Assembly (NCBI RefSeq): GCF_022410465.1
Contig: NZ_JAJSON010000025.1
Span: 434,001-498,000, forward strand
Reading direction: 5' to 3'
Source: Christiangramia crocea
Lineage (GTDB): Bacteria > Bacteroidota > Bacteroidia > Flavobacteriales > Flavobacteriaceae
DNA length: 64,000 nt
Position numbers and translations under genes: made by a program. Positions 8,890-58,752 of this stretch are shown in pieces. The notes under the pieces were generated by a model. The model was not told the origin of the DNA. It worked only from the letters and a program-made list of their open reading frames with translations, and did not search any database. Position 1 is the stretch's first letter, and each line of letters starts with the position of its first letter.

Positions 8890-8932
8890 TCTCATAGAAA
8901 AATGAGAGTAAAAAATAAATTAAAACCAACAA

Positions 8933-11338: not shown

Positions 11339-11402
11339 AAATGGTAAATGTTGAATTTTAGATGAATTGGCATTTAAAATTTCTAATTCAAAATATAAAA
11401 TA

Positions 11403-12593: not shown

Positions 12594-12661
12594 TTCTTGT
12601 AAACAAACAACTAGAACTAAATACAATATAGAGAATCCATTCTCACCAAATAATTACAAAA

Positions 12662-14476: not shown

Positions 14477-14498
14477 TTAAGTATTCTGTAAACTGAAA

Positions 14499-14568
14499 AA
14501 GCCTGAGGAGTTTTTATCACGCTAAGCTGAAACAAATTCAGTTTAACGATAAAATGCTTCTCAGGCTT
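14499..14568. terminator. Long imperfect hairpin, probable bidirectional terminator
   Basis: The outer arms AAGCCTGAG (14499-14507) and CTCAGGCTT (14560-14568) enclose further pairing (TTTATC with GATAAA) and an inner hairpin (CTGAA 14527-14531 with TTCAG 14537-14541). The 70-base structure lies between two convergent genes, ending 6 bases before the stop at 14575, and probably ends transcription from both sides. Confidence 0.65.
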
Positions 14569-14574
14569 ATTATT

Positions 14575-15468: not shown

Positions 15469-15625
15469 GTGTTCCAAAATTTTAAAGATATTAAGTTAAC
15501 TTATTTCGAAGAAAAGCATGCTTTGTTTCGAAATCCTTTTCGGTTAAATTTATTTAAATATTAAGAGCATTTATATTACAAAGTATTCATTTTTAGTAGC
15601 TTTAGGGATACCAACCAATCAGAAC

Positions 15626-18469: not shown

Positions 18470-18562
18470 ATCTTAAAAATCTTATAAATCAATGGCTGTC
18501 TAAAATGATTTTCGGAAATTTAAGAAAAATCAAATTCGTCGCAACAGCATTTACAATTAATT

Positions 18563-31100: not shown

Positions 31101-31103
31101 AAA

Positions 31104-32450: not shown

Positions 32451-32451
32451 C

Positions 32452-42384: not shown

Positions 42385-42437
42385 CAAATATTATTGTTAG
42401 ACCTTTAGATTTAAGATAAAGTTAACAATATGAAATA

Positions 42438-42467
42438 AAATAAGAGGGCGACGCCGCCCTCTTATTT
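42438..42467 (-). terminator. Terminator-like hairpin after the SusD gene
   Basis: A 13-bp perfect stem (42438-42450 with 42455-42467) on a 4-base loop. Read on the minus strand it is followed by TTTTATTTC, so it ends or attenuates the SusCD transcript before the FG-GAP genes. Confidence 0.85.
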
Positions 42468-42485
42468 ATTAAAATACTTTAAATA

Positions 42486-44087: not shown

Positions 44088-44094
44088 CAATTTT

Positions 44095-47000
44095 TTAGAA
44101 TTTAGCATTTAATCCAAAAGTGAATGTTCTCGGTCTGGGAAAAGAAGTATAATCAATACCCGCTGTTGGCAAACCGTTTAACGGTGTCTGAGTGTTCACT
44201 TCTGGATCCAATCCACTATAATCTGTTATAACAAACAAGTTCTGTCCATTAAGATATAATCTCAAATTATCCAAAAACGAATCATCACTTAGATCAAAAG
44301 TGTATCCAACACCAGCATTCTGTAGTCTTAAAAAGTCTCCTTTTTCGAGGAATCTTGTAGATACATCCGGTGCGTTTGCAATTGACTCTCCACTTGTTAA
44401 TACATCTGGAGTTACGTTTTTTCCACTATTTATACTTCCTGCAGTAAAGAAAGCATTGGCAGTATTATTATAGATATAATGTCCGAATTGTCCTGAGAAG
44501 AACAACGACGCATCGAAATTTTTATATTCTGCTCTGGTATTTATTCCCAGGTTGGTCGTGGGCAGTGCACTTTTGCCTACAAACTCCTGTTGGTCACCAT
44601 TAGGGTAAATGGAAAGACCATTTTCGTCATATCCCGCAAATTCTCTAAGGTAATAAGAAAATAAAGGTCTTCCTTCAGCTAATAACTGAGCAAAGGCACC
44701 AGTTAATCCCTGACCTGAAATCTGTGCAGTTTCAATTAGACCGTCAAAATTTTGAAGTTCATTATCGTTGTATGAAATATTGAAACCAAAATTCCAGAAA
44801 AAGTCTTGATCGTTAAAAATGTCATAATCTATAGCGAATTCAATTCCTTTATTAATTACATTTCCATCAATATTGGTAAAAGAAAATGGCACAGGACTCG
44901 GTTGGGCATTCTGGGCTAATAGCAATAGATCCTTAGTGTCTTTATAATAAATGTCCAGACTACCTGACAGGCGATCGCTAATAAATCCAAAATCCAATCC
45001 AAGGTTAGCTTGAGAGGTTTCTTCCCATTTCAAGTTAGGATTTGCAAAACCAGCAGTACCTAAACCACCACCATTAATATTACCTCCATTATCAATACCG
45101 TAACCATTAAGAATTCTCCTGGTAGTAAAGTTACCATATCCTAACCCTTCCTGGTTACCGGTTATACCATAACCTAAACGAAGTTTAAGGGTAGAGAAGG
45201 TTAAAGGAATAAAATCTTCCTGATCAATTTTCCATGCAAAGGCTCCTGAAGGGAAATATCCATATTGATTTTCAGGACCAAATCTTGATGAACCATCAGC
45301 TCTCATGGTAAAAGTAAATAGGTACTTATCCATTAAAGAATAATTAAGTCTTGTAAAGAAAGACTGAAGCTCATCAGTATTATCAAAACGTCCACTAGTA
45401 ATTACTCTGGTACTAATATTACCCGGGCTGGTTAATTCTATACCTGTTTGAACTTCGGGAAATAAGGCATCTATTAAAAAGCCAGCGTCACTATATCTTA
45501 ATTGCTGGTAGGAACGGTCTATACTTCCTTCGAGTGCTCCTAAATCGCTTCTAAACTGACTCATCATTTCACTCATATTCGTAGAAGCAAATCCGAATGC
45601 ACTTCCATATCTTCCTTCTCTCTGGAAATCCTGGAATGAATATCCAACAAGAGCTGAGAAATTAGAATTACTAAATTCCTTCTCATAATTCACCACAAAA
45701 TCTAACAGCCTGTTAGTAGCTTCAAGGTCATTAAGAAGTCCTCTACCGTTTCCTGGAGCACCGTTTGCAAAACCTACCACATCACCTGATACAACAGCGG
45801 TTTTTTCAGATTTAGACCTGTCATAACCAAATGTGATTTTCGCGTTAAGGTTTTCGATTATATCATAATCGGCTGAAAAATTCAATAGAACTCTGTTGGT
45901 TTCGGTTTCATCCTGAACATATTCAAGGATCTGCAATGGGTTAATTGCATTACCTACCGGGTCGAAATCAAGTTCAGCCGGCCATGTTGGATTGGCGTAA
46001 TAGGCGGCTCCTAATAAATCTCCGGTAGAACCGGCATTATTACTAATTGGAGCGGCAATATCTTCTACTCGCGATAATGTTGCCTGCAATGCCAGATTTA
46101 ATTTATCATCAAAAAAACGATGATTAGCATTTAATCGTCCTGTTAAACGTTCTAACTGGGAGTTTTCAACAACCCCTTCAATATCATTATAACCTAAAGA
46201 AGCCCTAAGGTTTCCATTGGTATAACTATTCATATAAGATAAAGCATGATTTTGGGAAAAAGCAGTTCTAGTTACCTCATCCTGCCAGTCAGTGTCAGCT
46301 CCGAAATCCTGAGCTTCCCGGTCTCCTCCAAATTGCTCCACCGCATCTAGAAATTCTTCTCTATTTAGAAGATCATATTCATTTGCCGGACTGGCAGCAC
46401 TTACAGAAGCATCATAAGTAAATGCTCCTCCACGCGTTCCCCTACCAGATTTGGTTTCAATAATCACGACCCCATTAGCTCCTCTGGAACCATAAATAGC
46501 AGTGGCAGAAGCATCTTTTAGAATACTTATGCTCTGGATATCACTTGGGTTAAGGAAGTTTAACGGGTTTCTTGCTGAACTCGATCCAACCCCCAAGTCT
46601 CCGGTTCCTGCAGCGGTATCATCACCTGCCAGAGGCACACCATCCACCACAAATAAAGGGTTATTATTAGAACGCACTGAAGTGGTACCACGAATACGAA
46701 GTGCAACACCTGCTCCCGGTTCACCACTCGCCTGAGTAATTTGCACCCCAGCAGTCTTACCCTGAATAAGCTCCTCAGGAGAAGAGATATTACCTTTGTT
46801 GAATTCTTCTGAAGTTACCGAGGCCACCGCTCCCGTCGCATCCTTAACTGTTGTTTGTCCGTACCCAATAAGTACGACCTCTTCCAGTTCGGAAGCATCT
46901 GTTGTAAGGTTGACATCTATGACAGACCGCCCATCAACGGCAATTTCCTGAGTCTCATAACCTACAAAACTGAAAACCAGTACCGCATCTGTTGGAACAT

Positions 47001-47187
47001 TATTAAGGCTATAGTTTCCATCAAAATCTGTCGTGGTCCCGGTTGATGTTCCCTGTATGGCAACAGTCGCACCCGGCAGCGGACCACTTTCATCCGTCAC
47101 TGTCCCGGACACTGTTTGTGCATTAGCCATACTGTAAAACAGAAAAGCCATGGCACACAAAAAGCTCCTGAAAATAATTTTTTTCAT
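44095..47187 (-). CDS. SusC/RagA family TonB-linked outer membrane transporter
   Basis: A 1030-residue TonB-dependent importer. It has a signal peptide (1-23, ending SMANAQ), a carboxypeptidase-D-like regulatory domain (VSGTVTDESGPLPGATVAI... about 24-105), a plug with ELEEVVLIGYGQ and LKDASATAIYGSRGANGV (about 115-235), and a 22-strand barrel ending in an aromatic-rich TFGLNAKF. It partners with SusD, which overlaps or follows it directly. Carbohydrates are the usual substrate of such pairs, but no glycan-degrading enzymes accompany this one. A LacI-type operator lies about 100 bases upstream. Confidence 0.96.
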   Translation of the reverse strand: MKKIIFRSFLCAMAFLFYSMANAQTVSGTVTDESGPLPGATVAIQGTSTGTTTDFDGNYSLNNVPTDAVLVFSFVGYETQEIAVDGRSVIDVNLTTDASELEEVVLIGYGQTTVKDATGAVASVTSEEFNKGNISSPEELIQGKTAGVQITQASGEPGAGVALRIRGTTSVRSNNNPLFVVDGVPLAGDDTAAGTGDLGVGSSSARNPLNFLNPSDIQSISILKDASATAIYGSRGANGVVIIETKSGRGTRGGAFTYDASVSAASPANEYDLLNREEFLDAVEQFGGDREAQDFGADTDWQDEVTRTAFSQNHALSYMNSYTNGNLRASLGYNDIEGVVENSQLERLTGRLNANHRFFDDKLNLALQATLSRVEDIAAPISNNAGSTGDLLGAAYYANPTWPAELDFDPVGNAINPLQILEYVQDETETNRVLLNFSADYDIIENLNAKITFGYDRSKSEKTAVVSGDVVGFANGAPGNGRGLLNDLEATNRLLDFVVNYEKEFSNSNFSALVGYSFQDFQREGRYGSAFGFASTNMSEMMSQFRSDLGALEGSIDRSYQQLRYSDAGFLIDALFPEVQTGIELTSPGNISTRVITSGRFDNTDELQSFFTRLNYSLMDKYLFTFTMRADGSSRFGPENQYGYFPSGAFAWKIDQEDFIPLTFSTLKLRLGYGITGNQEGLGYGNFTTRRILNGYGIDNGGNINGGGLGTAGFANPNLKWEETSQANLGLDFGFISDRLSGSLDIYYKDTKDLLLLAQNAQPSPVPFSFTNIDGNVINKGIEFAIDYDIFNDQDFFWNFGFNISYNDNELQNFDGLIETAQISGQGLTGAFAQLLAEGRPLFSYYLREFAGYDENGLSIYPNGDQQEFVGKSALPTTNLGINTRAEYKNFDASLFFSGQFGHYIYNNTANAFFTAGSINSGKNVTPDVLTSGESIANAPDVSTRFLEKGDFLRLQNAGVGYTFDLSDDSFLDNLRLYLNGQNLFVITDYSGLDPEVNTQTPLNGLPTAGIDYTSFPRPRTFTFGLNAKF

Positions 47188-47288: not shown

Positions 47289-47302
47289 CGAAAACGTTTT
47301 CG
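47289..47302. promoter_or_regulatory. LacI/GalR-type operator palindrome upstream of SusC
   Basis: CGAAAACGTTTTCG is a perfect palindrome with a central CG, the hallmark of LacI-family operators (AAnCGnTT core). It lies 102 bases upstream of the SusC start. A LacI-type regulator is therefore likely to control SusCD, though none is encoded in the window. Confidence 0.6.
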
Positions 47303-47495: not shown

Positions 47496-47546
47496 CTAAA
47501 AAACCTCAAAATTTGAGGTTTTTTGAGGTTTTTTGAGGTTTTTTAG
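47496..47546 (-). terminator. Terminator with triplicated arm after the dehydrogenase operon
   Basis: Read on the minus strand, three tandem copies of AAAAAACCTC precede a single GAGGTTTTTT arm and the T run. The arm can pair with any of the three copies. On the plus strand the repeat unit GAGGTTTTTT occupies 47515-47544. It lies one base beyond the stop of the small-subunit gene. Confidence 0.8.
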
Positions 47547-47547
47547 T

Positions 47548-48192
47548 CTACAATGACATAGCTTTTCCATTGCCAAGTTCTTCTACCGGGCCACATGGAA
47601 TATATTCTCCAGGAACAGGGTCATACCATAATACATTTTCTCCTATTTCCTCACTGGTTTTCCAGGCCCAGACAGCCATATCCCTAACATTAGAAAGGTA
47701 TGCATAGGCTCCGGCATCGGCATCTAATTCCATTTCCGCTTTCTGATCCTGGGCATCCTGGGTTTCAGAATTACGCTTCATATATTCTTCTCTTTTGGCA
47801 GGTGATGCCTTAAGATATTTCTTTACAATATTCTCAAATTCCTCATCATTTCCTTCTTCCTGTGCCTTTTCGTATTCATTCTCAAATGCTCTTGAAAAAG
47901 CCGCTGCCGATTGTTTAAACCGATCCCTTCGATCCAGATCGGCCACTTCTTCCATATATGAATCGATAAACTGAGCGATATTCAGATCGGAGGCCCCTGG
48001 CGTATCGGAAGCAGGAATAATAATATCAAGAATCTTTTTAAGTGCAAATCCGTGAGAGGCGCTAAGGAAAACCGGCTGCCAGTCATATTCTGGTTCATTC
48101 TTACAGCTTTGTAGTAAACTAAGTGTGGACGGACCAACTACCAGTATTCCTGCCCCAAGGCCTAGATTTTTTAAAACTTGTCTCCTATTCAT
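47548..48192 (-). CDS. Gluconate 2-dehydrogenase subunit 3 family protein (Tat-exported small subunit)
   Basis: The protein has 214 residues from the ATG at 48192. A longer in-frame start at 48237 would lie inside the upstream gene and hide the signal. It opens with a twin-arginine signal (NRRQVLKNLGLGAGILVVG) followed by LLQSC, so it may become a lipoprotein. The rest is the helical gamma-subunit fold of flavin dehydrogenases, with DIIIPASDTPGASDLNIAQFID at about 60-80. In known systems this subunit carries the folded catalytic subunit through Tat and is needed for its activity. It is the second gene after the GMC dehydrogenase. Confidence 0.88.
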   Translation of the reverse strand: MNRRQVLKNLGLGAGILVVGPSTLSLLQSCKNEPEYDWQPVFLSASHGFALKKILDIIIPASDTPGASDLNIAQFIDSYMEEVADLDRRDRFKQSAAAFSRAFENEYEKAQEEGNDEEFENIVKKYLKASPAKREEYMKRNSETQDAQDQKAEMELDADAGAYAYLSNVRDMAVWAWKTSEEIGENVLWYDPVPGEYIPCGPVEELGNGKAMSL

Positions 48193-48202
48193 AATTCTAT
48201 TT

Positions 48203-49906
48203 TTAAGCGTTGGATTTTTTAAAATTTTTGGATGCATGATCAGCAGCCCTGGCTGTTAAAGCCATATAAGTAAGAGAAGGGTTCTGGCAACCAGAGGAGG
48301 TCATACAGGCTCCATCAGTCACATACACATTAGGGACCTCATGTAGCTGGTTATTCCCGTTTAGAACTGAAGTTTTAGGATCCCGACCCATTCGAGCCAT
48401 TCCCATTTCATGAATTCCCAGACCCGGAGCCCCAATATCATCATATCCCTGAACATCTCTAAAGCCTGCCTTCTCAAGCATATCGACTGCCTGCGAAATC
48501 ATATCCTTACGCATTTTCAGTTCGTTTTCTTTAAATTCAGCATCAAATGTTATGGTAGGTAATCCCCAATCATCGAGCTTATCATAATCCAATGTCATTT
48601 TATTTTCATGGGCCGGCAGGGTTTCTCCAAATCCCATAAGTCCCATCGTCCAGCCTCCAGGCGCCGATACTGCTTTCTTCAGCTCTTCACCATAAGCTGC
48701 CTCAGCTATACTTTCAGACCAGTTCCCTCTGCTGGCTCCACCCTGATAACCATAACCTCTTAGGAAATCAACATCACTATCCTGTCCTTTTAGATTCCTA
48801 AACCTTGGTAAATAAATTCCATTTGGCTTACGACCTTTATAATAGGAATCTTCAAATCCGTCATATTTCCCTGAAGCACCAGCTTTAAAGTGATGATCCA
48901 TCACATTATGCCCAAGCTCTCCACTATCATTCCCCATACCATCAGGGAATCTGTCAGATTTTGACTGCATTAAAATACCTGTTGAGGCTACCGCTGAAGC
49001 ACATAAGAATATTACATTTGCCTTATACTCAAACTCCTCTTTAGTCTCGGTATCTATTACTTTAACCCCCGTTGCTCTTTTTGTATCCGGATCATATAAC
49101 ACCTCAGACACAATTGAATAAGGTCTCAGATCCATATTCCCGGTTCTGCTAGCAGCAGGTAAGGTAGACGAATTACTGCTGAAGTATCCTCCATAAGGAC
49201 AACCTCTTATACACCTGTTTCGAAACTGACATTTGGAACGGCCTTCGAATTTCTTATCACCTGTTATATGAGCAACCCTGCCGGAAGTCATTATCCTTCC
49301 ATTAAAATTCTCAGCTATGCTTTGCCTAACATAATCTTCAACACAGTTAAGGTCCATCGGTGGTAAGAATTGCCCATCTGGTAACTGACTTAGTCCCAAT
49401 TTCTCTCCGCAAACACCGATGTAAGACTCCACATGGTCGTACCAGCGTGCAATATCCTTATACCTTATTGGCCAGTCTACTGCAATACCGTCTTTTTTGT
49501 TGGCTTCAAAATCGAGATCGCTCAACCTATAACTATGCCTTCCCCACATTATTGACCTTCCACCTACATGATAACCACGCATCCAGTCGAACCGCTTCAC
49601 CTCATTGTAAGGGTGTTTTATATCATCTACAAACCAGTGTTTGCTTGGTTTGCTTGTAGTATAACCTGTTCGGGCCTGTTTGATTTGCCTTTCCTTCTCC
49701 TCCCTGGTAATATGTCCTTTATATTTATAATCCCAAGGATCGTCGTTCATGGTAGGATAGTCCTTTACATGTTCTACCATTCTCCCCCTTTCCAGTACCA
49801 GGGTTTTAAAACCTTTTTCACATAATTCCTTGGCGGCCCAACCACCACTTATGCCTGTTCCTACAACTATGGCATCATAGTTCTCATTTTCATAAATATT
49901 ACTCAC
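48203..49906 (-). CDS. GMC family FAD-dependent dehydrogenase, glucoside 3-dehydrogenase-like
   Basis: A 567-residue catalytic subunit with the ADP-binding motif VVGTGISGGWAAKEL at residues 14-28 and the C-terminal HEMGMARMG and CQNPSLT blocks (active-site His/Asn region). It has no signal peptide of its own, which fits export with the Tat-bearing small subunit. Cys226, Cys232 and Cys236 (CQFRNRCIRGC, spacing C-x5-C-x3-C) match the cysteine spacing of the [3Fe-4S] cluster in bacterial FAD glucose dehydrogenase. The start is GTG (complement of 49904-49906), with no in-frame ATG nearby. Its neighbours (DUF1080, isomerases, Gfo/Idh) suggest oxidation of a glycoside at C3. That substrate is inferred. 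Confidence 0.88.
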   Translation of the reverse strand: MSNIYENENYDAIVVGTGISGGWAAKELCEKGFKTLVLERGRMVEHVKDYPTMNDDPWDYKYKGHITREEKERQIKQARTGYTTSKPSKHWFVDDIKHPYNEVKRFDWMRGYHVGGRSIMWGRHSYRLSDLDFEANKKDGIAVDWPIRYKDIARWYDHVESYIGVCGEKLGLSQLPDGQFLPPMDLNCVEDYVRQSIAENFNGRIMTSGRVAHITGDKKFEGRSKCQFRNRCIRGCPYGGYFSSNSSTLPAASRTGNMDLRPYSIVSEVLYDPDTKRATGVKVIDTETKEEFEYKANVIFLCASAVASTGILMQSKSDRFPDGMGNDSGELGHNVMDHHFKAGASGKYDGFEDSYYKGRKPNGIYLPRFRNLKGQDSDVDFLRGYGYQGGASRGNWSESIAEAAYGEELKKAVSAPGGWTMGLMGFGETLPAHENKMTLDYDKLDDWGLPTITFDAEFKENELKMRKDMISQAVDMLEKAGFRDVQGYDDIGAPGLGIHEMGMARMGRDPKTSVLNGNNQLHEVPNVYVTDGACMTSSGCQNPSLTYMALTARAADHASKNFKKSNA

Positions 49907-49947
49907 AATTATTTGTTTTTTCGGTGAAAATATAGTTCGAAGTGTGT

Positions 49948-49955
49948 CAAATATA
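49948..49955 (-). promoter_or_regulatory. Bacteroidota -7 promoter motif for the GMC dehydrogenase operon
   Basis: On the minus strand this is TATATTTG, an exact TAnnTTTG match 42 bases before the GTG start at 49906. It lies in the 147-base region shared with the divergent isomerase operon. Confidence 0.5.
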
Positions 49956-50053
49956 TAAATTTAAGCTTATAATTTTACATCTTTAAAAAAAAGCCTACAT
50001 TTAAATTTCATTTTTACTAATCATACATAATCTCTCACTTTTTAGCACTTACA

Positions 50054-51058
50054 ATGAACTTTACAACTTTTAAATTACCAAAATTATTGTTTATCAGCTT
50101 ATTACTGATAACTACAGGTTTACTTTCCTGTAAGAACAAATCCGAAAATACTAATGAAACTTCAGAGAAAAATGAAGTCACAGAAAAGAAAAATTCCCTA
50201 TTCTTCAAAATTTCTCTTGCCCAATGGTCTTTGAATAAGCAAATATTTGCTGGAGACCTGGATCCTATGGACTTCGCAGAAAAAGCCAGCTCAATGGGAT
50301 TTGATGGGATTGAATATGTCTCCGGATTCTATGCTGAAAGAATTAAAAGCGCTGATGATCCGCAGGCAGAACTAAAAATTGTTCTGGATAGCTTAAAAGC
50401 TAAGAGCGAAGAATTTGGCGTAAAAAACGTTTTAATAATGGTAGATGGTGAAGGAGATCTTGCTACAACAGATTCTATTGTGCGTAATAAAGCAGTAGAA
50501 AACCATAAGAAATGGGTAGACGCAGCCAATTTTCTGGGATGTCACTCTATTCGGGTAAATCTTTTTGGAGCTGAAGATCCTGAAAAATGGAAAAATGCAG
50601 CGGCCGATGCACTCTCCAAACTTTCAGAATACGCCGCAGGAAAGAATGTGAATGTCCTGGTAGAGAATCATGGATACCTGTCTTCAAATGCCGACCTTCT
50701 GGTAGAGGTCATGGAATTGGTAGATATGAAAAACTGTGGCACCCTTCCCGATTTTGGTAATTTCTGCCTTAAAAGAGAAGATGGTGAAAGGTGGGAGGCA
50801 GAATGTATAGAAGAATATCCTAAATATGAAGGCGTAGAAAAAATGATGCCCTATGCCAAAGCTGTGAGTGCCAAGTCTTATTCATTTAATGAGCAAGGGG
50901 AGGAAGAAGTGATAGATTATAAAAGAATGCTTCAAATTGTGAAAGATGCAGGATATACCGGCTACATTGGTATTGAATTCGAAGGAGAAAACATGGAACC
51001 GGAAAAAGGTATCATGGCTACCAAAGAACTGCTCGTAAAAGCCGGAAAACAATTATAA
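50054..51058 (+). CDS. Sugar phosphate isomerase/epimerase-type TIM-barrel lipoprotein
   Basis: A 334-residue xylose-isomerase-like TIM barrel with a lipoprotein signal (LLLITTGLLSCKN), so it acts in the envelope. Barrel features include GFDGIEYVSGF, the metal-ligand strand VLVENHGYLSSNAD, LPDFGNFC and the final GYIGIEFEGE glutamate. Members of this superfamily act on free sugars or keto-sugars as well as phosphates, and an exported one cannot depend on cytosolic sugar phosphates. It is the first gene of a five-gene operon that ends with DUF1080. It probably acts on an oxidised sugar made by the divergent GMC dehydrogenase. Confidence 0.85.
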   Translation: MNFTTFKLPKLLFISLLLITTGLLSCKNKSENTNETSEKNEVTEKKNSLFFKISLAQWSLNKQIFAGDLDPMDFAEKASSMGFDGIEYVSGFYAERIKSADDPQAELKIVLDSLKAKSEEFGVKNVLIMVDGEGDLATTDSIVRNKAVENHKKWVDAANFLGCHSIRVNLFGAEDPEKWKNAAADALSKLSEYAAGKNVNVLVENHGYLSSNADLLVEVMELVDMKNCGTLPDFGNFCLKREDGERWEAECIEEYPKYEGVEKMMPYAKAVSAKSYSFNEQGEEEVIDYKRMLQIVKDAGYTGYIGIEFEGENMEPEKGIMATKELLVKAGKQL

Positions 51059-51080
51059 ACCAAATACCAATCTATTTACT

Positions 51081-52319
51081 ATGACTAAACTTGTTAGATT
51101 TCAACTTTCCCTGATGATGTTTCTTGAATTCTTCATCTGGGGTGGTTGGTTTGTAACCCTTGGAACATTTCTTGGCTACAACTTAAATGCCACAGATGTA
51201 CAGATTTCAACAGCTTTTTCTACTCAGTCCTGGGGCGCTATTATCGCCCCTTTTATTATAGGATTAATCGCCGACCGATTCTTTAATGCGGAAAGGATAT
51301 TGGGCTTTCTCCATATTATTGGAGCCATTCTTTTATATATGATGTATATAAGTACTGATTTTGCCGAATTCTATCCGTTGGTTCTTGGGTACATGATTGC
51401 CTACATGCCAACACTGGCCCTGGTAAATTCAGTAAGTTTCAATCAAATGAAAGATCCTGCAAAAGAATTCTCTTTTATCAGGGTTTTCGGAACTATTGGC
51501 TGGATAGTAGCCGGATTGGTTATAAGCTATATCTTTTTCTGGGATGCTCCAGGAGCCCGTCAGGAAGGAATGTTAAAATATACTTTCTTAATGGTTAGTA
51601 TTGCATCAGCTTTCCTGGGATTGTTCAGCTTCACCCTTCCAAAAACCCCACCTTCGGTTGATAAATCGAAAAAGGTGAGTATCGTTGAGACTCTAGGTCT
51701 GGATGCTCTTGGACTTTTGAAAGACAAGAACTTCCTGATGTTTTTCCTTGCTTCAGTCCTTATATGTATTCCACTTGCATTCTATTATCAGAATACCAAT
51801 CCCTTTCTTTCTGAAATTGGCGTGGAAAATCCAACGGGGCTAATGACCATTGGCCAGGCATCTGAAGTATTATTCATGTTATTACTTCCTTTCTTTTTCA
51901 AAAGATTTGGTTTTAAAATGACTATAATAGCTGGAATGCTAGCATGGACACTCAGATACCTGCTTTTTGCATATGGTGATACCGGAGAGCTTATCTTTAT
52001 GCTTATCACCGGGATTGCATTACATGGTATATGTTATGATTTCTTCTTCGTTTCGGGACAGATCTATACCGATTTTAAAGCAGGAGACAAGTATAAGAGT
52101 TCAGCGCAGGGATTAATCACCCTTGCTACTTATGGTGTTGGGATGTTAATTGGCTTTTATGTTGCCGGACTCATCACCAACGCCTATCTCACAGGAGATA
52201 AAATGCACGACTGGGAGACCATATGGCTTTATCCATCTGCCTTTGCGTTTGCCGTAATGCTGCTTTTCTCGATATTTTTCCGGAACGAGAAGATCGATAA
52301 AAAAGATATTGAAATATAA
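51081..52319 (+). CDS. MFS transporter, nucleoside:H+ symporter (NupG-like) family
   Basis: A 412-residue inner-membrane permease with about 12 hydrophobic segments. The N-terminus (MTKLVRFQLSLMMFLEFFIWGGWF) and the ADRFFNAERILG loop resemble the NHS/NupG family. In Bacteroidota, members of this family often sit in sugar-catabolic loci and are not restricted to nucleosides. Its place between an exported isomerase and cytosolic Gfo/Idh and isomerase genes suggests that it carries the periplasmic product, probably a keto-sugar, into the cytoplasm. It is 22 bases after the preceding gene and 14 before the next. Confidence 0.87.
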   Translation: MTKLVRFQLSLMMFLEFFIWGGWFVTLGTFLGYNLNATDVQISTAFSTQSWGAIIAPFIIGLIADRFFNAERILGFLHIIGAILLYMMYISTDFAEFYPLVLGYMIAYMPTLALVNSVSFNQMKDPAKEFSFIRVFGTIGWIVAGLVISYIFFWDAPGARQEGMLKYTFLMVSIASAFLGLFSFTLPKTPPSVDKSKKVSIVETLGLDALGLLKDKNFLMFFLASVLICIPLAFYYQNTNPFLSEIGVENPTGLMTIGQASEVLFMLLLPFFFKRFGFKMTIIAGMLAWTLRYLLFAYGDTGELIFMLITGIALHGICYDFFFVSGQIYTDFKAGDKYKSSAQGLITLATYGVGMLIGFYVAGLITNAYLTGDKMHDWETIWLYPSAFAFAVMLLFSIFFRNEKIDKKDIEI

Positions 52320-52333
52320 AATCAACTTTATTT

Positions 52334-53470
52334 ATGAGTAAAATAAAACTGGGCATCCTGGGAGGTGGAGAAGATTCTCTAATCGGAATACTTCACAGAG
52401 TCGCGGCCAATATGTTTGACCAATATGAAATAGTAGGAGGTGTTTTTGATGTGAAACATGAAAAAAGCCTGAAGTTCGGAGAAAAACTTCAGCTTGACCA
52501 GTCCAGAATATATAAGGACCTGGATGATCTTATCCAAAATGAAGCCCGATTACCTGACACTGAAAAGATGCAGGTAGTATCGGTGCTCACTCCTAATTTT
52601 CTTCATTTTCCCATGGCCAAAAAATTGCTGGAGAATGGCTACAATGTGATTTGCGAAAAACCGCTAACCACTACTTACGACGAAGCTAAGGTTCTGGATG
52701 AACTTCAGAAAAAGAACAATTCGATATTTGCCGTTACCTATACCTATACCGGGTACCCAATGGTGAGACAAATGAAGACCATGATCCAGAATGGTGAAAT
52801 TGGACAGGTACAAAAAGTGGACGTCCAGTATTACCAGGGATGGATAAATCCGCTTATACATGATAAGGAGAAAAGAGCGGCTACTTGGAGACTCGATCCT
52901 GATATATCTGGTATTAGTTGTTGTATAGGAGATATAGGAACTCATGCGTTCAATATGGCTGAATATGTGACCGGAATGCAGATAAGTGAGATCCTGGCAG
53001 ATCTTAACTATCTTTATGAGGATAACCCTATGGATATTGATGGTACTGTGCTTTTAAGATTTTCAGATAAAATCAAAGGCGTTCTTAGAGCCAGCCAGAT
53101 TGCCACCGGGGAAGAGAACAATTTTACCGTAAAGGTCTACGGTGATAAAGGCGGACTCAAATGGGAACAGGAAAACCCTAACTATCTTTATTTTTTGAAA
53201 GAAGATCAGGCATTGCAGGTTCTAAAACCCGGCCATGCTTATAATAGTGATTTTTCACTGGAAGGCACCAAGCTTCCTCCCGGACATCCGGAAGGTATCT
53301 TCGACTCGATGGGCAATATTTACTTTGGTATTGCCAATGCCATAAAGAATGAGATAAAATTTGATGGTGCCTATCCTCAGTTGAAAGATGGATTAAAAGG
53401 AATGAGCTTTATTGAAAAAACAGTTGCTTCTCACAAGCAGGGCAACGTTTGGGTAAAAATGCAAGATTAA
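52334..53470 (+). CDS. Gfo/Idh/MocA family oxidoreductase
   Basis: A 378-residue NAD(P)-dependent sugar oxidoreductase without signal peptide. It has the Rossmann N-terminus (KIKLGILGGGEDSLIGIL), the EKP motif (CEKPLTTTYDEA) at about residues 112-123 with the catalytic lysine, and the downstream GDIGTHAFNMAEYV with the active-site Asp/His. In characterised relatives these enzymes oxidise or reduce a sugar hydroxyl, and 3-keto reductases and C3 dehydrogenases occur among them. In this operon a reduction of an imported 3-keto-sugar back to a normal hexose is plausible. The cofactor and direction are inferred. Confidence 0.9.
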   Translation: MSKIKLGILGGGEDSLIGILHRVAANMFDQYEIVGGVFDVKHEKSLKFGEKLQLDQSRIYKDLDDLIQNEARLPDTEKMQVVSVLTPNFLHFPMAKKLLENGYNVICEKPLTTTYDEAKVLDELQKKNNSIFAVTYTYTGYPMVRQMKTMIQNGEIGQVQKVDVQYYQGWINPLIHDKEKRAATWRLDPDISGISCCIGDIGTHAFNMAEYVTGMQISEILADLNYLYEDNPMDIDGTVLLRFSDKIKGVLRASQIATGEENNFTVKVYGDKGGLKWEQENPNYLYFLKEDQALQVLKPGHAYNSDFSLEGTKLPPGHPEGIFDSMGNIYFGIANAIKNEIKFDGAYPQLKDGLKGMSFIEKTVASHKQGNVWVKMQD

Positions 53471-53486
53471 ACCAAAAAATTGAATT

Positions 53487-54548
53487 ATGAAGACTATCAA
53501 AGGACCGGCAGTTTTTTTAGCCCAGTTCATGGATGATAAAGAACCTTTCAATTCGCTGGAAGGGATGTGTAAATGGGCTTCATCTTTAGGTTATAAAGGA
53601 ATACAGATCCCAACCTGGGAAACCAGGCTGATAGATCTTAAGAAAGCTGCTGAAAGCAAAACATATTGTGATGAATTAAAGGGAAAAGTTGAATCTTATG
53701 GATTAGAGATCACCGAGCTGAGCACTCACCTGCAGGGCCAACTTGTGGCGGTGCACCCTGCTTATGACATCATGTTCGATAATTTTGCACCAGATGAATA
53801 TAAAAATAATCCAAAGGAGCGCACCAAATGGGCGGTAGACCAGCTTATGTATGCTGCAAAAGCCAGCAGAAACCTTGGTATTGATGTGCATGGGACCTTC
53901 AGCGGTTCATTATTATGGCATACGGCTCACCCATGGCCACAGCGGCCTGAAGGTCTCCTTGAAATGGGATTTTCTGAACTTGCCAAACGCTGGATACCGA
54001 TCCTGAATGAATTTGATGAACAGGGAGTGGATGTTTGTTATGAGATCCATCCTGGGGAAGACTTGCATGATGGGGTCACTTTTGAGCGTTTTCTGGATCA
54101 TACCCACCACCACAACCGTGTAAAGATACTTTACGACCCCAGTCATTTTATTCTTCAGCAACTGGATTACATTGAGTATATAGACTATTACCACGATTAT
54201 ATAAAAATGTTTCATGTAAAGGATGCCGAATTCAATCCTACCGGTAAGAAAGGAATGTTTGGTGGCTATGGTGACTGGCGTGACAGAGCCGGAAGATATC
54301 GCCACCCTGGAGATGGACAGGTGGATTTTAAGACCATCTTTTCCAAACTTACCGAATATGGTTGTGACGTATGGGCAGTTCTGGAATGGGAATGCTGCAT
54401 AAAATCTCCTGAACAGGGAGCAAAAGAAGGAGCCCCTTTCATTCAGAAACACATTATTGAGGCAACCCAGAAAAGATTTGACGATTTTGCAGGATCTGAG
54501 ATCGATGAAAACAAACTAAAACGAATTCTAGGACTTAACAACGATTGA
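53487..54548 (+). CDS. Sugar phosphate isomerase/epimerase-type TIM-barrel enzyme, cytosolic
   Basis: A 353-residue xylose-isomerase-like TIM barrel with no signal peptide. Likely metal ligands are in CYEIHPGEDLHDG (Glu), LYDPSHFILQQ (Asp/His), KMFHVKDAEF (His) and VLEWECC (Glu). It is the second enzyme of this fold in the operon. The first is an exported lipoprotein, so the two act in different compartments and are distant in sequence. It lies 16 bases after the Gfo/Idh gene and 4 bases before the DUF1080 gene. Isomerisation or epimerisation of a keto-sugar is the likely role. Confidence 0.88.
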   Translation: MKTIKGPAVFLAQFMDDKEPFNSLEGMCKWASSLGYKGIQIPTWETRLIDLKKAAESKTYCDELKGKVESYGLEITELSTHLQGQLVAVHPAYDIMFDNFAPDEYKNNPKERTKWAVDQLMYAAKASRNLGIDVHGTFSGSLLWHTAHPWPQRPEGLLEMGFSELAKRWIPILNEFDEQGVDVCYEIHPGEDLHDGVTFERFLDHTHHHNRVKILYDPSHFILQQLDYIEYIDYYHDYIKMFHVKDAEFNPTGKKGMFGGYGDWRDRAGRYRHPGDGQVDFKTIFSKLTEYGCDVWAVLEWECCIKSPEQGAKEGAPFIQKHIIEATQKRFDDFAGSEIDENKLKRILGLNND

Positions 54549-54552
54549 AAAC

Positions 54553-55308
54553 ATGAAGAAAACACTTTTTATATTAACCTGCTCTGTACTTGCTCTAACG
54601 GCATGTAAGAATGAAAAGAAAGATTCAGCGGAAACAGATATAAAGGAGACTGAAGAAATGGCTGCAAAAGAAGAAAAAGAACAAAGCGAATGGGAGGAGC
54701 TCTTTAACGGCGAAAATCTTGACGGTTGGAAGGCCTATAACAAGGATGAAATTTCTGACCAGTGGAAGGTTGAAGATGGTGTAATCGCCTTTACTCCTTC
54801 TGAAGAAGTGGAAGGCTCAGAAAATCTTATCACAGAAAAAGAATTTGGCAATTTCGAATTATCGATTGAATGGAAAATCTCTGAAGGAGGTAATTCAGGA
54901 ATTATGTGGGGGGTACAGGAAGATGAGAAGTACAATGAACCTTATCTAACCGGACCTGAGATCCAGGTACTTGATAACAAGAGACATCCCGATGCCAAGA
55001 ATGGGCTTAACCGAACTGCAGGAGCTCTATACGATATGGTTCCACCAAGTGAGGATGTAACCAAACCTGCAGGAGAATGGAATAAACAAGTTATCCATAT
55101 AGATCATGAGGAAAATATAGGCTGGGTACAGCTTAATGGAACAAAAGTGGTTGAATTTCCGGTTCATGGTAAAGAATGGGAAGAGATGGTCAGCAATTCA
55201 AAGTTCAAGGACTGGGAAAGCTTCGGTACCAGTAAAAAAGGTCATATCGCCCTGCAGGACCACGGTAATAAAGTATGGTTCAGGAACATTAAAGTTAAAC
55301 AACTATAG
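54553..55308 (+). CDS. DUF1080 lipoprotein (3-keto-disaccharide hydrolase family)
   Basis: A 251-residue lipoprotein (signal FILTCSVLALTACKN) with a ~35-residue acidic linker and then the concanavalin-like DUF1080 jelly roll: WEELFNGENLDGWKAY, EWKISEGGNSGIMWGVQED, the GPEIQVLDN block and a closing HIALQDHGNKVWFRNIKV. The family is now annotated as 3-keto-disaccharide hydrolase, cleaving glycosides whose sugar has been oxidised at C3. That fits the divergent GMC dehydrogenase, which could make the 3-keto substrate in the same compartment. It is the last gene of the operon and is followed by a terminator. Confidence 0.9.
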   Translation: MKKTLFILTCSVLALTACKNEKKDSAETDIKETEEMAAKEEKEQSEWEELFNGENLDGWKAYNKDEISDQWKVEDGVIAFTPSEEVEGSENLITEKEFGNFELSIEWKISEGGNSGIMWGVQEDEKYNEPYLTGPEIQVLDNKRHPDAKNGLNRTAGALYDMVPPSEDVTKPAGEWNKQVIHIDHEENIGWVQLNGTKVVEFPVHGKEWEEMVSNSKFKDWESFGTSKKGHIALQDHGNKVWFRNIKVKQL

Positions 55309-55328
55309 AACTAACACTAAACTGAAAG

Positions 55329-55352
55329 AGCTGCCTGCAATGGCAGCTTTTT
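55329..55352 (+). terminator. Rho-independent terminator after the DUF1080 gene
   Basis: AGCTGCC (55329-55335) pairs with GGCAGCT (55342-55348) around a 6-base loop, followed by a long T run. Confidence 0.9.
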
Positions 55353-55404
55353 TTTTCTTTAGTAATTTTTCAATAAAATCTTACCTTAAACTAAAAATAC
55401 AGTC

Positions 55405-56619
55405 ATGCAGAAGATCGATGTAAGTTTTAAAAATTCCGAATCCCAGACTTTAAGAGGTGTACTTGAACTGCCTACAAACAGAAAGCCTCATAACTTTGCC
55501 ATTTTTGCCCATTGCTTTACCTGTAATAAAAATTTTCATGCGCCAACCAATATTAGTAGAAGTATGGCTTCCAAGGGTTACGGAGTGTTAAGGTTTGACT
55601 TTACGGGACTTGGAGAAAGCGAAGGTGAATTTGCCGAAACGAACTTTTCGGGAAACGTGGAAGACCTTATGGCCGCTTCAGAGTTCCTGGGAAAAGAATA
55701 TAAGGCTCCGAGCCTGATTATTGGACATTCGCTGGGCGGTGCGGCAGCATTGTTCGCATCTAAAAAGACACCTTCAATAAAATGCATAGCGACTATAAAC
55801 TCTCCTTCAAGTTTATCTCATGTTCAGAAACATTTTGAATCGAGCATGGATGAGATTGAGGAAGAAGGGTTTGCGACTGTAAATATAGGCAGCAGAAAAT
55901 TTAAAATAAAAGAGCACTTTGTGGAAGATCTAAAGGCAAATGAAAATGCCACCGCTCTGAAGGATATTAGAAAGTCGATTCTTATCCTGCATTCTCCCCA
56001 GGACAATATAGTATCTATAGATCATGCAGAAGAATTATACCGGGCAGCCCGGCATCCAAAGAGTTTTATATCTCTAGATGGTGCAGACCATTTGCTTAGT
56101 AGGGAAAGCGATTCCTATTATGTGGCAAATGTGATTGCGGCCTGGGCATCCAGGTATATTGAAGAACCGGAAGTACAGGAACTTAATACCGATCATGAGG
56201 TTATGGCTAATCTTGGAGCTGAAGGCTTCTCCACACAAATGATCGCCGGTAACCATCATTTCATAGCAGATGAACCTAAGAGTGTTGGAGGAAACGATTT
56301 TGGGCCTAACCCTTATGAACTAGTTTCCAGTGGTCTTGCTGCCTGTACCTCCATGACCCTGCAAATGTATGCTCGCAGAAAAAAGTGGAAAATAGAAAAT
56401 GTGGAAACCCACGTAAGTTATTCAAAAAAGCATTCCGTAGATTGTGAGAATTGTGAGAAAGATTCTGCGAAAATAGATCATTTTGAAAGAGAGATCATTC
56501 TAAAAGGAGACCTGGAAGAATCTCAGAAAGAACGACTTCTGGAGATAGCAGACAAATGTCCGGTTCACAGAACCTTGTCATCAAAGGCCGAGATAAGCAC
56601 GCAGTTAAAGAATGCCTAA
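55405..56619 (+). CDS. Alpha/beta hydrolase fused to OsmC-family domain
   Basis: A 404-residue two-domain protein. Residues 1-250 are an alpha/beta hydrolase with nucleophile Ser in IIGHSLGGAAAL (about 111-122) and acid and histidine in HSPQDNIVS and DGADHLLSRE. Residues ~265-404 are an OsmC/Ohr-type domain with the paired redox cysteines in GLAACTSMTLQMYARRK and ADKCPVHRTLSS, the arrangement used to reduce organic peroxides. This fusion is known across bacteria under the name bifunctional alpha/beta hydrolase/OsmC. It would detoxify lipid or organic hydroperoxides in the cytoplasm. It is next to the sodC-type gene, consistent with oxidative stress. Confidence 0.92.
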   Translation: MQKIDVSFKNSESQTLRGVLELPTNRKPHNFAIFAHCFTCNKNFHAPTNISRSMASKGYGVLRFDFTGLGESEGEFAETNFSGNVEDLMAASEFLGKEYKAPSLIIGHSLGGAAALFASKKTPSIKCIATINSPSSLSHVQKHFESSMDEIEEEGFATVNIGSRKFKIKEHFVEDLKANENATALKDIRKSILILHSPQDNIVSIDHAEELYRAARHPKSFISLDGADHLLSRESDSYYVANVIAAWASRYIEEPEVQELNTDHEVMANLGAEGFSTQMIAGNHHFIADEPKSVGGNDFGPNPYELVSSGLAACTSMTLQMYARRKKWKIENVETHVSYSKKHSVDCENCEKDSAKIDHFEREIILKGDLEESQKERLLEIADKCPVHRTLSSKAEISTQLKNA

Positions 56620-56732
56620 CAGCGCAAAGGAGCTGAGCAGAGCTTTGTTAAGCAATCCTTAAATCTTTGGTGATACCTGTGAATAGGCTTAATTTAGAAT
56701 ATTAATTAGATAATTAAACCAATCGAGACATT

Positions 56733-57332
56733 ATGAAACGTATTAGTTTATCCCTTATTTTTTGCACAAGCCTTATACTTTTTGGCTGCAAGAATGAGAA
56801 CAAAGAAAATGAAGAAATGGATGACATGTCAGAAACTGAAATGACTTCTGATATGGAAACCGAAACAGAAATGGAAGAAGTTAAGAAGGTAGAGGTAGAG
56901 CTTCAGGCAGTTAGTGATTCTAACCTTAGCGGAAATGTTGTTTTCACAGAAGAAGACGGTGAGGTTTCCATGACGGCAATCATCAGTGGCCTTTCGGAAG
57001 GTACACACGCCATTCACATTCATGAAAAAGGTGACTGCTCTGCTCCTGACGGGAAATCAGCAGGCGGCCACTGGAATCCGACAGATGAGCCTCATGGAGA
57101 ATGGGGGCATGCTGAAGGATATCACAAGGGTGATATAGGAAACTTTGAAGTAGACGCCAATGGTAATGGTACCGTTAATATGAGTACAGACGAATGGTGT
57201 ATTGGTTGTGGTGACGAGAAAAAAGATATATTGGGAAAAGGGATTATAGTTCATGACGGAGTAGATGACTATACCTCCCAGCCATCTGGTGCAGCAGGTA
57301 CCCGTGTGGGTTGTGGTGTAATCCAGCAATAA
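56733..57332 (+). CDS. Cu/Zn superoxide dismutase family lipoprotein
   Basis: A 199-residue envelope lipoprotein (Cys19 in LILFGC). Copper and zinc ligands are all in place: His95 and His97 (HIHEKG), His113 (AGGHWNP), His121, His131, Asp134 (YHKGDIGN) and His174 (IIVHDGVDD). Cys102 and Cys194 can form the conserved disulfide. It converts superoxide to peroxide and oxygen in the periplasm or at the cell surface. Between the lipid anchor and the enzyme is an unusual Met- and acid-rich linker (Met29, 32, 37, 41, 47). It precedes an ECF sigma gene, after a terminator. Confidence 0.92.
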   Translation: MKRISLSLIFCTSLILFGCKNENKENEEMDDMSETEMTSDMETETEMEEVKKVEVELQAVSDSNLSGNVVFTEEDGEVSMTAIISGLSEGTHAIHIHEKGDCSAPDGKSAGGHWNPTDEPHGEWGHAEGYHKGDIGNFEVDANGNGTVNMSTDEWCIGCGDEKKDILGKGIIVHDGVDDYTSQPSGAAGTRVGCGVIQQ

Positions 57333-57357
57333 TATTATCTATTGTTTTTAATTGAAG

Positions 57358-57381
57358 AGCGGCCTCGCAGCCGCTTTTTTT
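57358..57381 (+). terminator. Rho-independent terminator after the sod gene
   Basis: AGCGGC (57358-57363) and GCCGCT (57370-57375) around a 6-base loop, followed by T7. Confidence 0.87.
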
Positions 57382-57423
57382 ATTTGTTATTTAAAACTAT
57401 ATTTAATTCAATAAATAATATTC

Positions 57424-57954
57424 ATGCAGCAGGACGGATTAATTCTCGAATTACAGAAGGGTAATCAGAGAGCTTTTGAAAGGATCTACGAGTTCTATTC
57501 CGAAAGTATTTATGGGATAATTTACAGCATAGTCCATGATGAGAAGGTTGCGGAAGAAATATTACAGGACGTATTTCTGAAAATATGGGAAAACTCAGCT
57601 TCTTACAATTCTGATAAGGGAAGATTCTTTACCTGGATCCTGAATATTGCCAGAAATGCCTCTATAGACCAGATTAGGTCCAAAAGCCATAAGAACAAGC
57701 AAAAAAACCTAAAAGCCGATAATTTCGTAGATATTTTAGAGAACAAATCTCACTTTTCTGCAAAAACTGACGCCATTGGAATTAAAAAATATATTGATAT
57801 TCTAAAACCTGTCTGTAAGAAATTAATAGACCTGCTTTTCTTTAAAGGCTTTACCCAAAAGGAAACAGCCGAAGAACTTGAAATGCCCCTGGGAACAGTA
57901 AAAACCAAGAACAGGGCTTGTATAAATAAACTTCGGGAAATGCTAGTTGAATAA
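57424..57954 (+). CDS. ECF-type RNA polymerase sigma factor
   Basis: A 176-residue sigma-70 family ECF factor. Region 2 is at about residues 10-85 (AFERIYEFYSESIYGIIYSI, DVFLKIWENSASYNSDKGRFFTWILNIARN) and region 4 at about 120-172 (KKLIDLLFFKGFTQKETAEELEMPLGTVKTKNRACINKLR). The next gene, 3 bases later, encodes an RskA-like anti-sigma factor, so the two form a classical pair. The resemblance is to the SigK/RskA class. It probably controls its own operon and genes for redox or envelope stress. Confidence 0.92.
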   Translation: MQQDGLILELQKGNQRAFERIYEFYSESIYGIIYSIVHDEKVAEEILQDVFLKIWENSASYNSDKGRFFTWILNIARNASIDQIRSKSHKNKQKNLKADNFVDILENKSHFSAKTDAIGIKKYIDILKPVCKKLIDLLFFKGFTQKETAEELEMPLGTVKTKNRACINKLREMLVE

Positions 57955-57957
57955 GAA

Positions 57958-58752
57958 ATGGATATAGAAGAATACATCTCATCTGGAATACTTGAACTTT
58001 ATGTTTACGGGGCTCTCACCGAAGAGGAAAGTCGTGAAGTTAGCAAAGCGCTAAAAGAGCATCCCGAGATTCGTAAGGAAGTTGAGGAAATTGAGCATGC
58101 ATTGCAGCAACTTTCTTCTGCAGCCGCTCCTTATAACCCTGATGTTCTCCTTTCAAGTATCAAAGAAAAACTGGCTGATAAGGATGTAATAAGAATAGAA
58201 CGCAAAAGTAAAACTAAATGGGTTTCCTATATCGGCTGGGCTGCATCTATCGTTCTACTTATTGGTCTGTTCTTTTTGATAGGTGATAATAATGAGCTTA
58301 GAGAGCAGCTGAATTCAGAAAAGGCACGCACAGCAAGAATGGAACAGCAGATCGCCGATGCACGGGACGATGCTGAAAAGACGAGGGAGCTCCTTGCCGT
58401 TTTGAGGGATAAAGACGTTTCCAGGATCCAGCTGCAAGGCCAGAATGTTGCGCCCGAAGCTTATGCGACCGTTTACTGGAACAAAAACGAAAATAAAGCC
58501 TATATAGATGCTAAAGATCTTCCTGAGCCTCCAAGAGGAAAAGTTTACCAGGTTTGGTCATTAAAACTTGAACCGCTTACTCCAACCAGTATTGGTCTCC
58601 TCGATGAGTTCAGTAGTGATGAGAATAAGATTTTTACCCTGGAAAATGCGAACCAGTCTGAAGCATTTGGAATAACACTTGAGCCTGAAGGCGGCAGTGA
58701 ATCTCCAACCATGGATCAGCTCTATGTACTGGGTGCTGTTGCAGCTCCCTAA
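57958..58752 (+). CDS. Anti-sigma factor, RskA family
   Basis: A 264-residue membrane anti-sigma factor. The N-terminal ~80 residues form the sigma-binding part (ISSGILELYVYGALTEEESREVSKALKEHPEIR, without a zinc-binding HxxxCxxC motif). A single membrane helix lies at about 87-107 (YIGWAASIVLLIGLFFLIG). A short coiled-coil region follows, and then the RskA-type periplasmic domain (ATVYWNKNENKAYIDAKDLPEPPRGKVYQVWSLK). It would hold the upstream sigma factor until a periplasmic signal arrives. Only 3 bases separate it from the sigma gene. Confidence 0.9.
   Translation: MDIEEYISSGILELYVYGALTEEESREVSKALKEHPEIRKEVEEIEHALQQLSSAAAPYNPDVLLSSIKEKLADKDVIRIERKSKTKWVSYIGWAASIVLLIGLFFLIGDNNELREQLNSEKARTARMEQQIADARDDAEKTRELLAVLRDKDVSRIQLQGQNVAPEAYATVYWNKNENKAYIDAKDLPEPPRGKVYQVWSLKLEPLTPTSIGLLDEFSSDENKIFTLENANQSEAFGITLEPEGGSESPTMDQLYVLGAVAAP

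Follow-up and report, generated by a model that had tools for sequence, protein, structure and literature searches.

How might a bacterium that oxidizes a glycoside outside its inner membrane recover the sugar within the cell? The question is raised by seven open reading frames (ORFs) of Christiangramia crocea (GCF_022410465.1, NZ_JAJSON010000025.1), found within the 64,000-nucleotide stretch of DNA that was analyzed as a whole, here called the window, and to which all ORF positions refer. On one side of a short gap lie genes for a small subunit and a GMC oxidoreductase, and on the other lie those for two triosephosphate isomerase (TIM) barrels, a major facilitator superfamily (MFS) permease, a Gfo/Idh oxidoreductase and a DUF1080 protein. 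Our answer, which we hold at a probability of roughly 0.7, is that these genes would encode a non-hydrolytic degradation of glycosides, running through oxidation, elimination, hydration and reduction, that is divided between the periplasm and the cytoplasm. The protein families, the export signals, the assignment of a hydratase and the conserved gene set on which this answer is built were read from the sequence.

According to the ORF list of the window, the seven ORFs form two divergent units, of two genes on the - strand and five on the + strand. Together with a Pfam scan, in which all seven proteins scored above the cut-off for their families, the list bears out the gene set, the positions and the two divergent operons with a 147-base gap that were given in a preliminary description of this DNA. 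The features are as follows (Tat, twin-arginine translocation; FAD, flavin adenine dinucleotide; pLDDT, predicted local distance difference test):

47548 to 48192 (ORF to 48237), - strand: Gluconate_2-dh3 small subunit, predicted Tat lipoprotein (PF13618, 67.3 bits; R18, R19 and C45 in 18/18)
48203 to 49906, - strand: GMC oxidoreductase, catalytic FAD subunit, likely a glycoside 3-dehydrogenase (PF00732/PF05199, GMC_oxred_N and GMC_oxred_C)
49907 to 50053, no strand: divergent intergenic region of 147 bases (ORF list)
50054 to 51058, + strand: exported TIM-barrel lipoprotein, candidate second lyase or epimerase (PF01261, AP_endonuc_2; C26 in 18/18; model pLDDT 89)
51081 to 52319, + strand: MFS permease of the NupG type, candidate for importing the cleaved sugar (PF03825, Nuc_H_symport, 382.8 bits)
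52334 to 53470, + strand: cytosolic Gfo/Idh oxidoreductase, likely a 3-keto-glucose reductase (PF01408, GFO_IDH_MocA; PF22725; PF02894)
53487 to 54548, + strand: cytosolic TIM barrel, likely a 2-hydroxy-3-keto-glucal hydratase (AP_endonuc_2; match to 8ro4)
54553 to 55308, + strand: DUF1080 lipoprotein, likely a 3-keto-glycoside eliminase and perhaps also a hydratase (PF06439, 3keto-disac_hyd, 180.8 bits)

The proposed pathway would begin in the periplasm, where the Tat-exported small subunit and the GMC enzyme would oxidize a glucoside at C3, with FAD handing the electrons on to a c-type cytochrome by way of an iron-sulfur cluster. The DUF1080 protein, perhaps together with the exported TIM barrel, would then eliminate the aglycone from the 3-keto-glycoside to yield 2-hydroxy-3-keto-glucal, and may hydrate part of this enone to 3-keto-glucose while still in the periplasm. 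The MFS protein would import 2-hydroxy-3-keto-glucal, 3-keto-glucose or both, after which the second, cytosolic TIM barrel would hydrate the former and the Gfo/Idh enzyme would reduce 3-keto-glucose to glucose in the cytoplasm. If NAD(P)H were the reductant in that last step, every glycoside cleaved would send its electrons on to cytochromes in the periplasm. In this scheme we infer the C3 specificity, the substrate, the transported species, the electron acceptor and the role of the exported TIM barrel.

The cytosolic TIM barrel had at first been taken for an isomerase, a label that did not hold. Residues 1-350 of its 353 match (533.9 bits, E 2.3e-159) the solved structure 8ro4, which is titled 2-hydroxy-3-keto-glucal hydratase and which we take to be AtHYD, and the protein is best read as a likely hydratase of that kind. 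Residues E186, H188, D217, H243 and E302, which by their pattern are likely to be the metal-site set, are invariant in 15 sequences of the family and in 6 cross-lineage sequences, and the gene is present as a single copy in its own genome. Because the hydratase is cytosolic, an unsaturated sugar would be expected to reach the cytoplasm.

Conservation was followed in a family sample of 199 genomes, the own genome included, from which 60 loci anchored on the hydratase were drawn; these were hand-picked, non-randomly, from the 101 genomes with a hydratase, being mostly higher-scoring and with enough contig on both sides. A crude script run over the proteins of these 60 loci saw a hydrophobic N-terminus in none of the 60 Gfo/Idh proteins and none of the 60 hydratases, and in 45/48 DUF1080 proteins, 40/59 exported TIM barrels and 29/58 small subunits. 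Its lipobox pattern matched 44/48 DUF1080 proteins, 53/58 small subunits and 36/59 exported TIM barrels, as well as 8/60 Gfo/Idh proteins and 1/59 GMC enzymes. The Gfo/Idh gene stands beside the hydratase gene in all 60 loci and also in five other records, spread over three phylum or class lineages, where the protein is 38-43% identical to that of the window. It is likely a 3-keto-glucose reductase, and the earlier suggestion that a Gfo/Idh enzyme would finish the pathway in the cytosol is supported as a prediction.

On the other side of the membrane, the DUF1080 protein is predicted to be a lipoprotein from its lipobox cysteine C18 (11/11 sequences), and it belongs to PF06439, scoring 180.8 bits against a cut-off of 26.8 and keeping the histidine of the DHG motif, H237, in 11/11. 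Its model (pLDDT 86) matches 3u1x and 4hxc, which by their titles are untested proteins, and then 8rr2 and 9fbe, both titled '3-keto-glycoside eliminase/hydratase'. Further matches are 8tda, the '3-Keto-2-hydroxy-glucal-hydratase' of Bacteroides thetaiotaomicron, 3osd (BT2157) and 8v31 (Alistipes), and two of the titled relatives are complexes with 3-keto-glucose and 2-hydroxy-3-keto-glucal. By homology to 8rr2 and 9fbe, an eliminase acting on 3-keto-glycosides would be present. The periplasmic cleavage by a lipoprotein that had been put forward for this protein is supported as a prediction, but not its description as a plain hydrolase: because the relatives with functional titles are eliminase/hydratases, 'hydrolysis' would here consist of elimination followed by the addition of water. 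Elsewhere in the own genome there are nine further PF06439 matches; a single 480-residue frame accounts for two of them, and another is weak (28.9 bits).

The same relatives bear on a first alternative, close to the version of the pathway originally outlined, in which net hydrolysis would already be completed by DUF1080 on the periplasmic side. The sole sugar left for import and for reduction by Gfo/Idh would then be 3-keto-glucose, and the hydratase of the cytosol would scavenge leaked enone. The titles eliminase/hydratase and hydratase speak for it, as does the invariant H237, since the available text of PMC13273386 reports deficient hydration for the H275N variant of the lyase from B. thetaiotaomicron and alignment offsets suggest that H275 is the DHG histidine H237 of the window. 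A scavenger, on the other hand, agrees less well than a main-line enzyme would with a Gfo gene beside the hydratase gene in 60/60 loci and with the joint occurrence of exported TIM barrel and hydratase in 96 genomes. We consider this alternative plausible, at odds clearly below even.

The exported TIM barrel is harder to place. That it is exported, as had been stated, agrees with the lipobox cysteine C26 found in 18/18 sequences, from which it is a predicted lipoprotein; the role of isomerase given to it earlier we recast, and it becomes a candidate for a second lyase or for an epimerase, its metal site being unusual. Its model lies nearest to 4ovx, a planctomycete protein (Z 41.8, root-mean-square deviation (rmsd) 1.2, 268 residues, 51% identity). 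Next by Z come Art22 (29.2, rmsd 2.1, 248 residues) and a tagatose-epimerase-like protein (26.8, 2.3, 244), followed by the DgpC/CGD lyases from 26.5 downwards (7exz, rmsd 3.2, 261 residues), with ketose epimerases 1 to 2 Z units under the best lyase. In Foldseek, DgpC ranks directly after 4ovx, and the sequence profile gives the same picture, 4ovx and then DgpC relatives. Since lyases and epimerases lie within 1 to 2 Z units of each other, the fold does not decide between lyase and epimerase.

The available text of PMC10628242 gives the metal-site pattern of the C- and O-glycoside TIM-barrel lyases, among them DgpC and AtOGE, as [Glu/His]-x-His, Asp, His, Glu. The exported TIM barrel keeps E204-x-H206, D233 and E308 and has Ser272 at the position of the metal-site His in 18/18 sequences, so that its site differs from the DgpC/AtOGE type. 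Because of Ser272 we have not filed it with these lyases, of which it is possibly a functional analogue; AtOGE by name was absent among its listed matches, which is no evidence of unrelatedness. A second alternative would make this protein an epimerase of 3-keto-glycosides or 3-keto-sugars, like Escherichia coli YcjR, with the locus then handling galactosides or other epimers. Ketose epimerases and YcjR itself (6wn6, 3-keto-D-glucoside 4-epimerase) are indeed among the structural neighbors, yet the best Foldseek rows after 4ovx are DgpC/CGD C-glycoside lyases (by Z, lyases and epimerases are only 1 to 2 units apart), and the Ser-for-His change suits neither a lyase nor an epimerase. We give this alternative much the same standing as the first, a real prospect but a minority one. 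A further exported TIM barrel follows the small subunit in 30/60 loci (L045:12507-13430 and relatives; best NCBIfam score, below cut-off, for hydroxypyruvate isomerase) and was not seen at that place in the window.

For the oxidation, the preliminary description had named a small subunit with a Tat signal, and this was confirmed, with an addition: the twin arginine R18, R19 is invariant in 18/18 sequences, and so is the lipobox cysteine C45, making the protein a predicted Tat lipoprotein. Seventeen aligned relatives begin at Met16 (48192), which is most likely the start here also, and the 35-base overlap with the GMC gene is therefore probably an artefact of the ORF. The small subunit had no match among solved structures at E up to 1. 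The GMC enzyme is without an export signal of its own and would ride out with the small subunit. Among solved structures it is closest to large subunits of fructose dehydrogenase and to a glucose dehydrogenase, and no NCBIfam model reaches its cut-off for it. It keeps C226-x5-C232-x3-C236, H499 and N542 in 16/16 and 6/6 sequences, and the three cysteines align with those of fructose dehydrogenase, which presumably hold a 3Fe-4S cluster. With the export signal and the cysteine motif present, the earlier suggestion of a periplasmic oxidation by a two-subunit GMC enzyme is supported as a prediction. That this enzyme instead oxidizes an alcohol, a polyol, gluconate or a fructose-like sugar, with its neighbors serving an unrelated sugar route, would fit its solved relatives and the lack of an NCBIfam assignment, but is improbable given that the enzyme co-occurs with the hydratase, the solved relative of which has a 3-keto product in its name, and recurs beside that hydratase in the rearranged sets of other lineages.

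As to a candidate electron acceptor, a family of lipoprotein c-type cytochromes is encoded close to the small subunit in 5/60 family loci (8-17 bases away in three of them, roughly 940 in the other two). In a second set, of 80 named loci, 9 have it no more than 2 kb from the small subunit. The own genome has a 55% identical relative of this flavobacterial protein at C11:147146-147640. A different c-type cytochrome stands inside a Hymenobacter gene set described below; used as a query in the own genome it gave weak matches (best 34% identity), the flavobacterial family giving the better one. The own genome also carries a second GMC (65% identical) and small-subunit pair (L103, G000:C11:196000-215999, at 8778-19935) with a TIM barrel between the two genes and an FG-GAP protein, a Tat-type Gfo/Idh protein and a DUF1080 protein nearby. 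Eleven of the 60 loci (L054, L058, L060, L065, L067, L072, L075, L079, L085, L088 and L089) carry an additional GMC gene, placed between those for Gfo/Idh and hydratase and read from the opposite strand.

Between the two compartments stands the permease. Eight of the 60 family loci are without the NupG-type MFS gene; seven of these carry an unrelated MFS gene between exported TIM barrel and Gfo/Idh, and one has neither. A member of the replacement family, matching only MFS_1 in Pfam, shares 61% identity with the MFS protein encoded in the Pseudoalteromonas set described below. One of the two families is thus present in 59/60 loci, which is the best evidence that crossing of the inner membrane is part of the pathway. 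An MFS import step as originally proposed is supported in this manner; the keto-sugar as its sole cargo is not retained, since the enone may cross instead or too, and the cargo may be 2-hydroxy-3-keto-glucal, 3-keto-glucose or both. A stricter form of the proposal has the enone made outside by one or two lyases (DUF1080, plus the exported TIM barrel with its Ser-for-His metal site and a preference for the opposite anomer) and then imported by either MFS family. Through periplasmic oxidation and cytosolic reduction, each glycoside cleaved would then send electrons from NAD(P)H to cytochromes of the periplasm; in that full form we think it unlikely.

Across the 199 genomes, the hydratase occurs in 101 and the exported TIM barrel in 101, with both in 96 (Fisher 1e-43), and the GMC enzyme (E up to 1e-200) in 106, of which 97 also have the hydratase (Fisher 2e-40), p-values that are too strong because related genomes are not independent. 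In the 60 family loci, where the hydratase is present by selection, we found Gfo in 60, GMC in 59, the exported TIM barrel in 59, the small subunit in 58, the NupG-type MFS in 52 and DUF1080 in 55 at any score (48 at 90 bits or more), with the complete gene order and orientation kept in 41. The named set, the best 80 of at least 588 confirmed loci, several of which end at contig ends, holds Gfo in 73, GMC in 63, the exported TIM barrel in 57, the small subunit in 56, the NupG-type MFS in 44 and DUF1080 in 62 at any score (53 at 90 bits or more). The two sets share organisms and their counts were not added. Because the divergent set recurs across the family and its genes co-occur, we regard the gene set as beyond chance. 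In one locus (L144, Maribacter litopenaei) the genes for small subunit, exported TIM barrel, Gfo and second GMC are each broken into two ORFs, by decay or sequencing error, while the matches to the main GMC, MFS, hydratase and DUF1080 are unsplit.

The five records from other lineages, all plasmid, were picked by hand among 30 listed of 311. The Hymenobacter order is GMC, small subunit, nucleoside permease, Gfo, hydratase, cytochrome c, TIM barrel, TIM barrel, DUF1080. That of Pseudoalteromonas is Gfo, hydratase, MFS, DUF1080, GMC, small subunit, TIM barrel, its TIM barrel and MFS being no evident relatives of those in the window, and that of Croceicoccus is Gfo, hydratase, small subunit, GMC. 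In Phyllobacterium the hydratase and Gfo lie with ATP-binding cassette (ABC) transporter genes and in Pantoea with a binding-protein gene, neither having a GMC gene in the stretch.

Several points weigh against the split pathway that we favor, beyond the relatedness of the genomes already noted. The cytosolic hydratase looks redundant if DUF1080 hydrates in the periplasm, as the titles of its relatives indicate, and the C3 specificity of the GMC enzyme is deduced from gene linkage alone. No CxxCH motif of a c-type cytochrome occurs in window ORFs of at least 80 residues. The NupG-type permease falls in a nucleoside-transporter family, and 8/63 GMC-bearing named loci have neither MFS type in the stretch covered (L116, L118, L120, L122, L135, L143, L149 and L162; L143 is cut by its contig). 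Five of these, from marine metagenome-assembled genomes (L116, L118, L120, L122 and L135), are without the exported TIM barrel in the stretch as well; in them GMC is directly divergent from Gfo/Idh.

Terminator-like repeats flank the locus, found in a scan that gave 13 such sites in comparison to 7.6 in shuffles:

47497 to 47525, no strand assigned: terminator-like inverted repeat 3' of the GMC/small-subunit unit (terminator scan; listed on the + strand, near-symmetric)
55324 to 55353, + strand: terminator-like repeat 3' of the five-gene unit (terminator scan)

As such repeats stand after both units, the SusC/SusD genes at 42486-47187 are probably transcribed apart from the GMC/small-subunit unit. 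We rejected the idea that SusC/SusD belong to the system in general: matches to the SusC or SusD of the window occur in 3/60 family loci, one of them strong (L076), in stretches limited in length. The pair is linked to the module in Christiangramia sediminis (L110), and a link at the level of the genus is possible. In the window the pair belongs to a - strand region (30177-47187), where it is followed by three proteins of FG-GAP type, each roughly 1100 residues long (UnbV_ASPIC is present as well in the one that was scanned), and by a PAP2-superfamily protein; relatives of the FG-GAP and PAP2 proteins are also found close to the module in L044 and L112. About 100 bases upstream of SusC is a perfect 14-base palindrome (47289-47302, CGAAAACGTTTTCG), the sole exact copy in the genome, which resembles LacI-family operators; with one mismatch allowed it is no commoner (4 genome copies) than its reversed control (5). 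A consensus pattern for Bacteroidetes-type promoters gave one match in the window against 3.6 expected, and none at the locus.

Downstream on the + strand (55405-58752) follow a hydrolase-OsmC fusion, a protein like a Cu/Zn superoxide dismutase lipoprotein, a protein resembling sigma factors and an anti-sigma protein of the RskA type, genes partly retained in L043, L044, L110 and L112. In 39 to 41 of the 60 loci the module is followed instead by yicC-, gmk- and nadD-like genes (named by eye), where the window has the OsmC-type gene, and this recurrence points to an old chromosomal place.

No description of this locus was recognized in a literature search from which subscription papers mostly fell outside, and we do not claim that it is undescribed. 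Two papers of 2024 on these enzyme sets, cited in PMC13273386, may already describe such loci, and one of them reportedly speaks of a glycoside utilization gene locus. If the split pathway holds, many flavobacteria would have genes labelled 'isomerase', 'nucleoside permease' and 'hydrolase' to which new roles fall, and the identity of the sugar that passes the inner membrane would become directly testable.

Among known systems, the Agrobacterium tumefaciens operon (GlycDH, AtOGE, AtHYD and Gfo) is similar in that it combines flavoprotein 3-oxidation of glycosides with a Tat protein, an eliminase, a hydratase of the same class and a Gfo reductase. In the available text, AtHYD is inactive on 3-keto-phlorizin, preliminary evidence assigns the hydration to it, and the Gfo enzyme reduces the product (PMC10628242). 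Cleavage there is the task of AtOGE, a TIM barrel; that text describes four enzymes, none of them a DUF1080 protein, and does not discuss compartments. The set of the window has an MFS gene and two predicted lipoproteins as cleavage candidates. The BT2156-BT2160 cluster of B. thetaiotaomicron shares a DUF1080 eliminase/hydratase (BT2157), but oxidation in the window is assigned to a GMC enzyme, and the window Gfo/Idh lies below the NCBIfam cut-offs of BT_2158_fam (37.2 of 750 bits) and BT_2159_fam (25.4 of 650) and outside both families. In the levoglucosan route of Bacillus smithii (LgdA/B1/B2/C), which also proceeds through oxidation, elimination, hydration and reduction to glucose, the first enzyme is the levoglucosan dehydrogenase LgdA, and the available text names no GMC or DUF1080 protein (PMC7676230); against the NCBIfam model for levoglucosan dehydrogenase, with its cut-off of 650, the window Gfo/Idh reaches 102.8 bits.

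Caulobacter LacABC with DUF1080 and its Bacteroidetes counterparts resemble the locus in having a periplasmic multi-part dehydrogenase, a nearby DUF1080 gene and a proposed periplasmic cleavage (PMC9007349). Unlike in LacABC, a third, cytochrome c subunit was not seen beside the oxidase of the window, a candidate lying elsewhere at C11:147146-147640. The Bacteroidetes systems are described for lactose, and the fate of the periplasmic keto-sugar is stated as unknown in the available text (PMC9007349). The locus described here adds importer, hydratase and reductase candidates beside oxidase and lyase, and so offers a concrete answer as to that fate. While the four-step chemistry is already published, as far as the available texts go (PMC7676230, PMC10628242), its division across the inner membrane with a dedicated importer would be a testable variant of it.

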